Assembly: GCF_000017625.1 (NCBI RefSeq)
Contig: NC_009712.1
Span: 124,001 to 188,000 of the forward strand
Direction: 5' to 3'
DNA from: Methanoregula boonei 6A8
Lineage (GTDB): Archaea; Halobacteriota; Methanomicrobia; Methanomicrobiales; Methanospirillaceae
DNA length: 64,000 nt
Every line of letters begins with the position of its first letter. The first letter of the stretch is position 1. Shown here in pieces: positions 14,022-18,135 of the stretch. Made by a program: the position numbers and the translations under genes. Under the pieces are notes generated by a model that saw only the letters and a program-made list of their open reading frames with translations, was not told where the DNA came from and made no database searches.

Positions 14022-14189
14022 ATGGTTCACCATATACTCCCTGCCTGTCCCGTCTGCCAGCGGGAGGATACCGTTGTTGTCCATGAGGATCTGGGCTCTG
14101 ACGGCCATTTCTGCATGTGCGCAGGTCCCGATGGCTGCGGCTCGACCTTTGTCATGAACCCTGACGGGTCGCTCTCCGATATTTTCTAA
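14022..14189 (+). CDS. Zinc-ribbon microprotein
   Basis: A 55-residue ORF with two cysteine pairs: CPVC near residues 9-12 and CMC/C near residues 35-43 (FCMCAGPDGCGSTF). The spacing suggests a single zinc ribbon with short beta strands. No family recognised. It lies about 75 bases after lon in the same direction and could be co-transcribed. The regular cysteine layout supports coding despite its small size. Confidence 0.6.
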   Translation: MVHHILPACPVCQREDTVVVHEDLGSDGHFCMCAGPDGCGSTFVMNPDGSLSDIF

Positions 14190-14303: not shown

Positions 14304-14315
14304 AATTATTTAAAT
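14304..14315 (+). promoter_or_regulatory. TATA-like box of the leader/decarboxylase transcript
   Basis: AATTATTTAAAT lies 25-36 bases upstream of the leader ORF start at 14340, so transcription would begin just before or at that ORF and run through a roughly 65-base leader before the decarboxylase start. Confidence 0.45.
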
Positions 14316-14339
14316 GGGAGGATATCAAAGGAAGCAAAT

Positions 14340-14408
14340 ATGCGCAGGAAACCGGATTATCCGAAGAGACTGCTGCAGTTTTTGAGACTGCAGAGGAGTA
14401 CACGATGA
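14340..14408 (+). CDS. Arg/Lys-rich leader peptide ORF
   Basis: A 22-codon ORF with six Arg and two Lys (starts MRRKPDYPKR). It has AAAGGAAG about 6 bases upstream of its ATG. Its TGA overlaps the ATG of the Orn/Lys/Arg decarboxylase as ATGA (14405-14408). Composition and position fit a regulatory leader peptide coupling translation of the decarboxylase to the supply of charged arginyl-tRNA or to arginine itself. The alternative is that the decarboxylase frame, also open here (…AQETGLSEETAAV…), begins further upstream; no ATG or GTG supports that before 14405. Confidence 0.5.
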   Translation: MRRKPDYPKRLLQFLRLQRSTR

Positions 14409-16714
14409 GTTCCCCAGAGCGGCTTGTTGTTGCGGTCATAGATGACGAGATCCATAAGGATACCCCTCATGGCAGGGCGATCAAACGGATTATCCGCGAC
14501 CTTGAAAAATATGAGATTTTTGTTGCCGATATTGCCTCGCCTGAGGATGCACGAACCGCGTATTCCAACCTCCCCTCGGTCAACTGCATCCTCATCGACT
14601 GGAACCTGGGTAACCGGGAGAAGGAGGCACAGCAGGACACGCTCAAACTGATCCGGCAGATCCGCTGCATCAACGAAGATCTCCCGATCTTCCTCATGGC
14701 AGAGCCCACAAGCGAGCCACCGATCGGGATCACGGTGGATGTACTCAAGGAGATTAACGAGTACCTCTACGTGATGGAGGACACCTCCGAGTTTATCGCC
14801 GGGCGTATCTCGGCTGCAGCAAAGCGGTACCAGGACCGGCTGCTGCCGCCGTTTTTCGGGGAACTCGTGAAGTTCTCCAAGGATTTCGAGTATTCCTGGC
14901 ACACGCCGGGCCATGCCGGTGGGACAGCGTTCCGCAAGACGCCCGCCGGGCGGCGGTTTTTCGAATTCTTCGGCGAACAGCTCTTCCGGTCCGATCTCTC
15001 CATCTCGGTCGGGGAGCTTGGCTCGCTTCTCGACCACTCCGGGCCGGTGGGCGAAGCCGAACGGTACGCCGCAAAGGTCTTCGGGGCCGACATGTCCTAT
15101 TTTGTGACAAACGGTACTTCAACGGCAAACAAGATCGTCTTTTTTGGCCGGGTTACCGAGAACGATGTTGTCCTTGTGGACCGGAACTGCCACAAATCGG
15201 CCGAGCATGCGCTCACCATGACTCACTCTGTCGCCGTGTACATGGTCCCGACCAGGAACCGGTACGGGATCATCGGCCCGATCCCGCCCTCCGATATGAC
15301 ACCGGCAGCTATCAGGAAAAAGATCGCTGCCTGCCCCTTAGCAAAAAACCTTCCCGACAAAACCCCGGTCCACGCGATTGTCACCAACTCGACCTATGAC
15401 GGCCTCTGCTACCATGCGGTGGAAGTGGAAAAGGAACTGGGAAAAAGCGTTGACAGCATCCATTTCGATGAGGCATGGTACGGCTATGCCCGGTTCAACC
15501 CGCTCTACCGCGACCGGTTTGCCATGCGGGACGGGGCAAAGGACAAGAAAGGCCCGACCGTCTTTGCCACCCAGTCAACCCACAAACTGCTCGCCGCGCT
15601 CTCGCAGGCGTCCATGGTCCATGTAAGAAACGGCCGTGTCCCGATCGAGCATGCCCGGTTCAACGAGGGGTTCATGATGCACAGCTCCACGTCCCCGCTC
15701 TACACGATCATCGCATCGCTGGACGTGTCCACCAAGATGATGGACGGGGCATCAGGAAGGCTGCTCACGACCGAGTCAATCGAGGAAGCAATCCGGTTCC
15801 GCCGCACGATGGCAAGAATCGAAAAGGAGATCGGGACCGGCAAGACCAGGACCGACTGGTGGTTCCCCATGTGGCAGCCGGACACCGTCACGGATCCGAA
15901 AACCAAAAAGAAGATCGCGTTTGCCACGGCACCCCTGGAGACCCTGCGGGATAACCCCTCGTGCTGGGTGCTGCACCCGAAGGATGCATGGCATGGCTTT
16001 GAGGACCTGCCCGACAACTACTGCATGCTCGATCCCATCAAGGTGACCGTGCTCACGCCCGGCGTCAAAGAGGATGGATCGCTTGCTGCATGGGGCATCC
16101 CGGCAGCCATTGTTGTCAAGTTTTTGGACACCCGGGGCATCATCAATGAGAAGTCCGGGGATTACTCGATCCTCTTCCTCTTCTCGATGGGGATCACGAA
16201 AGGCAAGTGGGGTACCCTTATTACCGAGCTCTTCGAGTTCAAACGCCGTTACGATGAGAACGCCCCGCTTGACGAGGTCTTCCCTGACCTTGTGGCACAG
16301 TGGCCGGATCGGTACGGCGGCATGACCCTGCCGGAGCTTGCGGCCCAGATGCACGCGTTCAAGCGCGACCACAACATGTGTGGATTGCTCCAGAAAGCGT
16401 TCTCGGCCCTTCCGGAGCCGGTGATCACGTACGCGGAATCCTACAAGAGACTCGTGCGGGACGAGGTAGAGCAGATACCGGTTGCGCAGGCGGCAAACCG
16501 CATCGTGGCAACAGGTATCGTGCCCTACCCGCCGGGCATCCCGCTGCTTGCACCTGGCGAGAAGACCGGGCCAAAGACCGGCCCGGTGCTCCAGTACCTG
16601 CTCTCGCTGCAGGATTTTGACCGGCGCTTCCCCGGCTTTGAGCACGACACCCACGGGATCGAGAGCATCAAAGGTGAATACAGGATGATCTGTGTAAAGG
16701 AGAAGAAACGATGA
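14405..16714 (+). CDS. PLP-dependent Orn/Lys/Arg decarboxylase, probably arginine
   Basis: A 769-residue fold-type I decarboxylase of the AdiA/CadA/SpeC family, turning a basic amino acid into a polyamine precursor and CO2 while consuming a proton. Order: N-terminal receiver-like wing domain (about 1-130), PLP core with Asp355 in HFDEAWYGY and the PLP lysine Lys394 in STHKLL, then the C-terminal domain. Length equals bacterial AdiA. GAGGAG precedes the ATG at 14405. The antiporter gene overlaps its stop by ATGA. Arginine is favoured by the antiporter and the Arg-rich leader, but lysine or ornithine cannot be excluded from sequence alone. Confidence 0.9.
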   Translation: MSSPERLVVAVIDDEIHKDTPHGRAIKRIIRDLEKYEIFVADIASPEDARTAYSNLPSVNCILIDWNLGNREKEAQQDTLKLIRQIRCINEDLPIFLMAEPTSEPPIGITVDVLKEINEYLYVMEDTSEFIAGRISAAAKRYQDRLLPPFFGELVKFSKDFEYSWHTPGHAGGTAFRKTPAGRRFFEFFGEQLFRSDLSISVGELGSLLDHSGPVGEAERYAAKVFGADMSYFVTNGTSTANKIVFFGRVTENDVVLVDRNCHKSAEHALTMTHSVAVYMVPTRNRYGIIGPIPPSDMTPAAIRKKIAACPLAKNLPDKTPVHAIVTNSTYDGLCYHAVEVEKELGKSVDSIHFDEAWYGYARFNPLYRDRFAMRDGAKDKKGPTVFATQSTHKLLAALSQASMVHVRNGRVPIEHARFNEGFMMHSSTSPLYTIIASLDVSTKMMDGASGRLLTTESIEEAIRFRRTMARIEKEIGTGKTRTDWWFPMWQPDTVTDPKTKKKIAFATAPLETLRDNPSCWVLHPKDAWHGFEDLPDNYCMLDPIKVTVLTPGVKEDGSLAAWGIPAAIVVKFLDTRGIINEKSGDYSILFLFSMGITKGKWGTLITELFEFKRRYDENAPLDEVFPDLVAQWPDRYGGMTLPELAAQMHAFKRDHNMCGLLQKAFSALPEPVITYAESYKRLVRDEVEQIPVAQAANRIVATGIVPYPPGIPLLAPGEKTGPKTGPVLQYLLSLQDFDRRFPGFEHDTHGIESIKGEYRMICVKEKKR

Positions 16715-18135
16715 GCGACGACGCACCGGTAGTAAACAAAAAGGTGCTCGGCGTTTTTGCGCTTGCCATGATCAACGTGGCGGCCGTGCTGAGCATCAGG
16801 AATTTCCCGTCCATGGCAATCTACGGGTGGTCGTGTATCGGCTGGTACATCCTTGGGACTATCCTGTTTTTGATCCCCATCTCCCTTGCGGGGGCAGAAC
16901 TGGCAACCGGCTGGCCCGAAGGCGGCGGTGTGTACGCGTGGGTCAAGCAGGCATTCGGCGAGAAAGGGGGATTTACCGCCCTTTTCTGCGAATGGTCCAA
17001 CAACCTTGTCTGGTTCCCGACCGTGCTCTCGTTTACCGCATCCACGCTCGCGTTTGCACTCACCCCGAACCTGGCGAGCAACCCCTGGTTCATGTTTTCC
17101 GTTATGATGATCGTGTTCTGGGGCACCACGGCCATTGCGTACTTCGGTGAGGAGGCATCCGCAAAATTCTCCAACGTGGGTGTGATCCTGGGGAGCATCG
17201 TCCCTTCGCTCCTCATCATCATCCTTGGCCTCTGGTGGCTGGGTTCGGGCCAGGCTATTGTCCTGCCGCACTTTTCATTTGGCCAGGTCGTACCGACGAT
17301 CAATCTCTCCACGCTTCCGTTCTTTGCCACAGTCGTTCTCCTCTTTGCCGGCATGGAGATGGCCGGGTTCCATGCGCTTGAGACAAGAAATCCCCAGCGG
17401 GACTACCCCAAGGCCATGGCGCTCTCGGCCGTGATCATTGTGATTTGCACGGTCCTTGCAACGCTTGCCATTGCGATTGTTATTCCGGCAAGCCAGCTCA
17501 ACCTCGCCTCCGGGGTCATGCAGGCGATCCAGTACTTCTTTGACGCGTCCGGGATCGCATGGCTTGTCGGCCCCATGGCGCTTCTGATCACGCTGGGCGG
17601 TGTCGTGAATCTTGCTTCCTGGCTTATTGGCCCGGCAAAGGGTCTTGGGATCGTTGCAGAAGAGGGCAACATGCCCCCGATCTTTGACCGGACCAACAAG
17701 TACGGCGCACCGGTTGCGGTGCTCGTCATCCAGGCGCTGATCGGCTCGGTGGTCTCGCTTCTCTATGTCTTTTTGCCTTCGGTCAACCAGGCGTACTGGA
17801 TCCTTTCGGCAATGACGGTCGAACTGCTCTGTATCGTGTACATCCTCGTCTTTGCCGCGCTCATCAAGCTGCGGTACAGCCAGCCGGATACGCCCCGGCC
17901 CTTTAAGATCCCGGGCGGGAAGACCGGCATCTGGATTGTCGGGGGACTGGGGCTGTTTGGCACGACCTTTGCCTTTATTGTCGGGCTCATGCCACCGTCA
18001 TTTTTCACCAGCTGGGTCACCTATGTCTCCGCGGTGCTGCTGGGAACGTTCCTCTTAGCCGTGCCCCCGCTTGTCTTTTTAAAATTCAAGCATCCGGGCT
18101 GGTCCAAAAAAACCCAGGGAGGTTCAAACCCATGA
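16711..18135 (+). CDS. APC-family amino acid antiporter (AdiC/GadC-like)
   Basis: A 474-residue membrane protein with about twelve helices of the amino acid-polyamine-organocation superfamily. The GPAKGLGIVAEEGNMPP segment near residues 308-324 is typical of GadC-like glutamate/GABA-type antiporters, and the first helix region FALAMINVAAV is the substrate-binding start. It overlaps the decarboxylase by four bases, so the pair should act together: import of the amino acid and export of its decarboxylation product. Such pairs give acid resistance in bacteria. The substrate is inferred from the partner gene. Confidence 0.88.
   Translation: MSDDAPVVNKKVLGVFALAMINVAAVLSIRNFPSMAIYGWSCIGWYILGTILFLIPISLAGAELATGWPEGGGVYAWVKQAFGEKGGFTALFCEWSNNLVWFPTVLSFTASTLAFALTPNLASNPWFMFSVMMIVFWGTTAIAYFGEEASAKFSNVGVILGSIVPSLLIIILGLWWLGSGQAIVLPHFSFGQVVPTINLSTLPFFATVVLLFAGMEMAGFHALETRNPQRDYPKAMALSAVIIVICTVLATLAIAIVIPASQLNLASGVMQAIQYFFDASGIAWLVGPMALLITLGGVVNLASWLIGPAKGLGIVAEEGNMPPIFDRTNKYGAPVAVLVIQALIGSVVSLLYVFLPSVNQAYWILSAMTVELLCIVYILVFAALIKLRYSQPDTPRPFKIPGGKTGIWIVGGLGLFGTTFAFIVGLMPPSFFTSWVTYVSAVLLGTFLLAVPPLVFLKFKHPGWSKKTQGGSNP

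Follow-up and report, generated by a model that had tools for sequence, protein, structure and literature searches.

A short leader frame coupled to a decarboxylase start in Methanoregula boonei and its relatives: sequence evidence for retention of the frame while the peptide drifts

Introduction

What does a 22-codon reading frame do when it ends on the start codon of a basic amino acid decarboxylase gene? Such a frame lies in the window analyzed here, a stretch of 64,000 nucleotides from Methanoregula boonei 6A8 (NC_009712.1, positions 124,001 to 188,000), and the initial annotation read it as a leader peptide in which ribosomes slowed on Arg codons would link decarboxylase expression to arginine supply. 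We asked whether the layout exceeds chance, what is kept in it among orthologues, and which mode of control it would best fit.

Results

A leader frame, a decarboxylase and an antiporter overlap in series

The described elements are present. Translation returns a frame of 22 codons with 6 Arg and 2 Lys, its TGA (14406-14408) lies over the decarboxylase ATG (14405-14407) as ATGA, and a TATA-like box stands 24 nt 5' of the leader ATG. The features of the locus, all on the forward strand, are as follows.

14307..14315 (+), TATA-box-like element TATTTAAAT, probable operon promoter, invariant in the four-way alignment A1
14340..14408 (+), leader ORF of 22 codons, MRRKPDYPKRLLQFLRLQRSTR and stop, joined to the decarboxylase start by an ATGA overlap
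14393..14398 (+), GAGGAG within the leader ORF, where it makes up part of the Arg/Ser codons; Shine-Dalgarno-like site of the decarboxylase
14405..16714 (+), Orn/Lys/Arg decarboxylase, 769 aa (PF01276, E 6e-163; PF03711; PF03709)
16711..18135 (+), APC-family amino acid antiporter, GadC-like (PF13520; TIGR03813, 430 bits, below cutoff)

By its models the decarboxylase is nearest to the biodegradative arginine decarboxylases (AdiA type), the best NCBIfam match being NF011603, arginine decarboxylase, at 937 bits, which does not reach the cutoff of 1167. A second ATGA (16711-16714) joins the decarboxylase stop to the antiporter start, and this 4-base overlap recurs in most relatives in which an antiporter directly follows. 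For the antiporter, GadC-type (Glu or Gln/GABA) models are closest and AdiC is far (430 vs 59 bits). Upstream of the promoter, a Cys-rich 55-codon ORF at 14022-14189 (+) (MVHHILPACPVCQREDTVVVHEDLGSDGHFCMCAGPDGCGSTF...) resembles a small zinc-binding protein and has no Pfam match.

The decarboxylase start

In a rival reading the decarboxylase begins further upstream within its frame, where no stop intervenes back to TTG 14276 (KYAQETGLSEETAAVFETAEEYT-M), or is reached by a frameshift from the leader. In M. boonei this frame (frame 2) is open upstream and looks protein-like, and one relative, L068, has an in-frame upstream ATG. In most close relatives, however, this frame is broken not far upstream, in L002 it offers no start codon ahead of the ATG, and the conserved decarboxylase N-terminus begins M(N/S)PEE. 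An upstream start is thus highly improbable, and the assignment of the start to ATG 14405 stands, since relatives either interrupt the in-frame extension or do not conserve it. We also considered a longer N-terminus lost from the protein-like frame by a single-base deletion, which is ruled out by the lack of any such extension in relatives, and a programmed frameshift, for which no common slippery site was seen by eye and for which the overlap itself accounts for the layout. In L068, upstream of 3001, a short frame in frame with the decarboxylase (MKGHIADYPEEPPVDNSREKKK-M) is possibly an N-terminal extension.

Coupled leader frames recur above chance among orthologues

In M. boonei taken alone, the leader layout is near chance. 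Simple scripted gene calls over 324 kb (the window together with 13 stretches of 20 kb) gave 140 genes with at least 100 nt of free upstream space, 12 of which carry an ATG frame of 12-45 codons ending in ATGA or TGATG, where dinucleotide-model shuffles predict 9.2. These numbers favor the view that the ORF arose by chance in the promoter or 5' UTR of M. boonei and that the decarboxylase initiates independently from GAGGAG, as does the state of some close relatives, where the ORF is missing or broken in frame (L004, L007, L032, L045, L047, L065 and L068).

A strong excess of coupled frames across the relatives speaks against that view. Whole-genome and contig searches supplied 50 non-redundant upstream regions, which were aligned on the decarboxylase start. 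A stop-free run of at least 27 codons is present in 37 of them for the frame that overlaps the start, compared with 21 for the in-frame reading, 13 for the third frame and an expectation of 32%. In 30 of the 50 regions an ATG frame of 12-45 codons has its stop on the decarboxylase start (11.3 expected), and 18 have such a leader with a Shine-Dalgarno-like (SD-like) site (2.1 expected); since the sequences are related these counts are not fully independent, and the averages over 41 sequence clusters, 13.0 SD-led leaders against 1.7 expected, are the safer figures. Among more distant decarboxylases (from bacteria, Methanothrix, Methanoculleus-type and others), 5 of 46 have such an ORF and 1 has it with a ribosome site. 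The comparison supports recurrence above chance of a short leader ORF coupled to the decarboxylase start in orthologues, mostly of the same family, and in this respect the initial annotation is supported.

Frames of 24 codons in the Methanothrix sequences L108 and L112 were not counted as support, the corresponding frame in L114 being broken and the shared letters being promoter-like. In these three (L108:1500-1720, L112 and L114) the AT-rich DNA upstream (tctacaaagatttaataat...) is conserved, as is the ending gctgagtgtgat; a promoter is the probable explanation.

The frame is kept while the peptide drifts

The leaders fall into subgroups that can be aligned. Group A comprises M. boonei, L002 (the nearest relative, with a decarboxylase 87% identical), L003 and L031, with leaders of 22, 22, 20 and 20 codons that end in ATGA, ATGA, ATGA and TGATG. 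In the alignment of these four sequences (A1), on which frame retention in M. boonei's own subgroup is judged, the TATTTAAAT box and the leader ATG are invariant, while the DNA from ATG to stop is poorly conserved and its gaps, of 3 and 6 nt, are multiples of three. The start of L047 is similar to those of group A and its frame has its stop elsewhere than at the overlap; therefore, leader retention is not universal. The L047 contig is filed under a Bacteroidetes MAG and holds an 80% identical methanogen decarboxylase and antiporter, and is probably mis-binned.

Seven further related leaders (L006, L008-L012 and L076) have 29-30 codons and keep start, SD and stop. The six of 30 codons (group B: L006, L008-L012) align with no stop or frame-breaking indel, and L076 differs from them in length by one whole codon. 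In the other two frames, 6 and 5 of the same six leaders carry stops, and in a neutral star-tree simulation the lack of stops in the leader frame is moderately improbable (P = 0.038). Mismatches among the six are spread evenly over codon positions 1, 2 and 3 (137:132:128), and pairwise dN is about equal to dS (dN/dS near 1), whereas the first 50 decarboxylase codons of the same genomes change mostly at position 3 (dN 0.02-0.05, dS 0.30-0.71). Other leader subgroups show mismatches likewise even over codon positions, and among the leader codons only those nearest the start seem to be shared (M-S/N-R for group A, MSEP for group B). The L076 decarboxylase has an in-frame TAG at about codon 121 and a later frame change (G006), probably through misassembly or because the gene is broken.

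Because codon-position mismatches are even, leader dN/dS is near 1 and the frame is unbroken, the alignments indicate retention of the frame with its start, ribosome site and overlap, and drift of the leader peptide. The chance reading fits poorly with the persistence of start, frame and overlap in L001, L002, L003 and L031 despite length changes of 3 and 6 nt, and with the excess across relatives; we regard it as unlikely, though worth keeping in mind.

Arginine content of the leaders

The proposal of arginine sensing, in which ribosomes slowed on Arg codons alter access to the decarboxylase ribosome site, has some attractions: 6 of the 22 leader codons are Arg, some of them infrequent in M. 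boonei (AGA 2.3, CGA 1.7 and AGG 6.5 per 1000), the enzyme is nearest to arginine decarboxylase, and Arg codons operate in the orf34-speF leader of Salmonella (PMC6386406). The richness in Arg is nevertheless unremarkable, as shuffled open leaders contain 3.5 Arg, with a probability of 0.14 for at least 6, and part of the Arg content arises where the leader reads through the purine-rich ribosome site. Nor is it kept: the 25 leaders examined contain 0-6 Arg each and 64 in total against 65.7 expected from shuffled open frames, four have none (L006, L011, L126 and L130), and the L002 leader, from the nearest relative, has only 2. No excess or conserved run of Arg codons was found in the 25 leaders, and the peptide shows no purifying selection.

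The RNA gives a similar picture. Folding of the M. boonei leader region is nothing unusual (z -0.78), and the search for a supported alternative structure, a terminator-like site or an Rfam match at the locus returned none; the leader overlaps the gene directly. The part of the initial annotation that concerned control by arginine supply is thus supported by neither codons nor structure, and such sensing now seems very unlikely.

A probable promoter close to the leader start

The leader ATG lies 23-24 nt 3' of TATTTAAAT across M. boonei, L002, L003 and L031 (24 in M. boonei), and in L047 an AT-rich box of other sequence (ATTATAAATA) stands at a similar spacing to its leader start. Given the spacing of archaeal promoters, a TATA box in this position predicts that transcription begins only a few bases from the leader ATG, at about 14337 in M. 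boonei. The leader ORF is therefore probably leaderless in the M. boonei subgroup, with a transcript start that we infer from the promoter. The leader's supposed own ribosome site, AAAGGA at 14327-14332, is weak and not conserved among the relatives in alignment A1, and it lies at or 5' of the predicted transcript start, which makes a leaderless ORF more likely. Across M. boonei genes, TATA-to-start spacings were too noisy to reveal whether leaderless starts are prevalent.

Proposed ribosome hand-over and possible facilitated access

Taken with the direct contact of leader stop and downstream start (ATGA at 14405-14408; ATGA or TGATG in relatives), these observations make it fairly probable, in our judgment, that the leader is a peptide-neutral ORF that passes ribosomes to the decarboxylase start by termination-reinitiation. 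Ribosomes would begin at the 5'-proximal leader ATG, probably in leaderless fashion in the M. boonei subgroup and by SD-led initiation in many other subgroups, would read about 14-30 codons, and would stop at the TGA. Reinitiation could then occur at the overlapping decarboxylase ATG, aided by the SD inside the 3' end of the leader, and the second ATGA overlap may couple decarboxylase to antiporter, giving a chain from leader to decarboxylase to antiporter. Several observations weigh against this proposal: the ORF is absent or broken in the close relatives listed above, the M. boonei layout alone is near chance, the group B simulation gives a P of only 0.038, and the purine-rich site just 5' of the decarboxylase start, which is also found in most relatives, is on many decarboxylases a good SD that might initiate on its own.

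It is also conceivable, if rather unlikely as the main effect, that leader translation acts by opening mRNA folds in which the decarboxylase ribosome site would be masked. In most of the 25 loci the natural leader leaves the SD and AUG less exposed than a shuffled one does, and they become more accessible once the leader is cleared, though shortening of the RNA alone gives that result. The accessibility effects are small and not uniform, however, and M. boonei shows neither a significant fold nor an Rfam match. As a sub-mechanism, such facilitated access can coexist with ribosome hand-over.

Discussion

The proposed hand-over of ribosomes from leader to decarboxylase has close counterparts. 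Termination-reinitiation at such stop/start overlaps (reviewed in PMC12548453) has been shown experimentally for Haloferax volcanii gene pairs (Huber et al. 2019, PMC6728339), and the coupled pairs of that archaeon share with our locus the ATGA/TGATG overlap and an SD inside the upstream frame; there, however, the upstream partner is an ordinary gene, whereas here it is a frame of 14-30 codons with no conserved peptide. Short ORFs that serve only to deliver ribosomes have been discussed (PMC12548453) and built synthetically in bacteria (PMC13255528), where a "nonsense peptide" ORF works with a minimum of 8-10 codons and with a strong site immediately ahead of the target. These uORFs resemble the present leaders in being short, peptide-neutral and directly 5' of a target, and they promote its translation as the present leaders would; the synthetic ORF is bacterial, while ours are natural and archaeal, with a start that is probably leaderless in some members. 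In Methanosarcina mazei, 5' UTRs hold 10% of unannotated translated small ORFs (PMC11456600). In the literature searched, we found no description of a natural archaeal short coupled uORF in which frame rather than peptide is retained.

The enterobacterial orf34 (speFL)-speF-potE operon (PMC6386406) has the same order of leader ORF, basic amino acid decarboxylase and antiporter. It differs in that orf34 encodes a conserved peptide core with two Arg codons, while the leaders described here lack peptide conservation; in that orf34 starts at nt 32 and speF at nt 516 of the mRNA, in place of a direct overlap; and in its control by Rho and RNase G. The orf34 core HIRRT (DUF2618) is absent by inspection from all 25 leaders, whose peptides show no sign of purifying selection.

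Ribosome delivery has been proposed as the role of short coupled uORFs, and there are few natural cases in which evolution shows the uORF frame, not the peptide, to be kept. The decarboxylase locus and its relatives provide a clear comparative case, and a caution that the amino acid content of short leader ORFs should not be read as sensing. We raise more tentatively, as a doubtful but possible extension, that several Methanomicrobiales lineages keep a peptide-free "ribosome loading" ORF before an acid-resistance-type decarboxylase operon, with starts that switch between leaderless and SD-led, and that translation of decarboxylase and antiporter depends on initiation at the leader. If true, this would be a naturally selected, sequence-neutral translational gate in archaea, which might respond to conditions via leaderless versus SD initiation.
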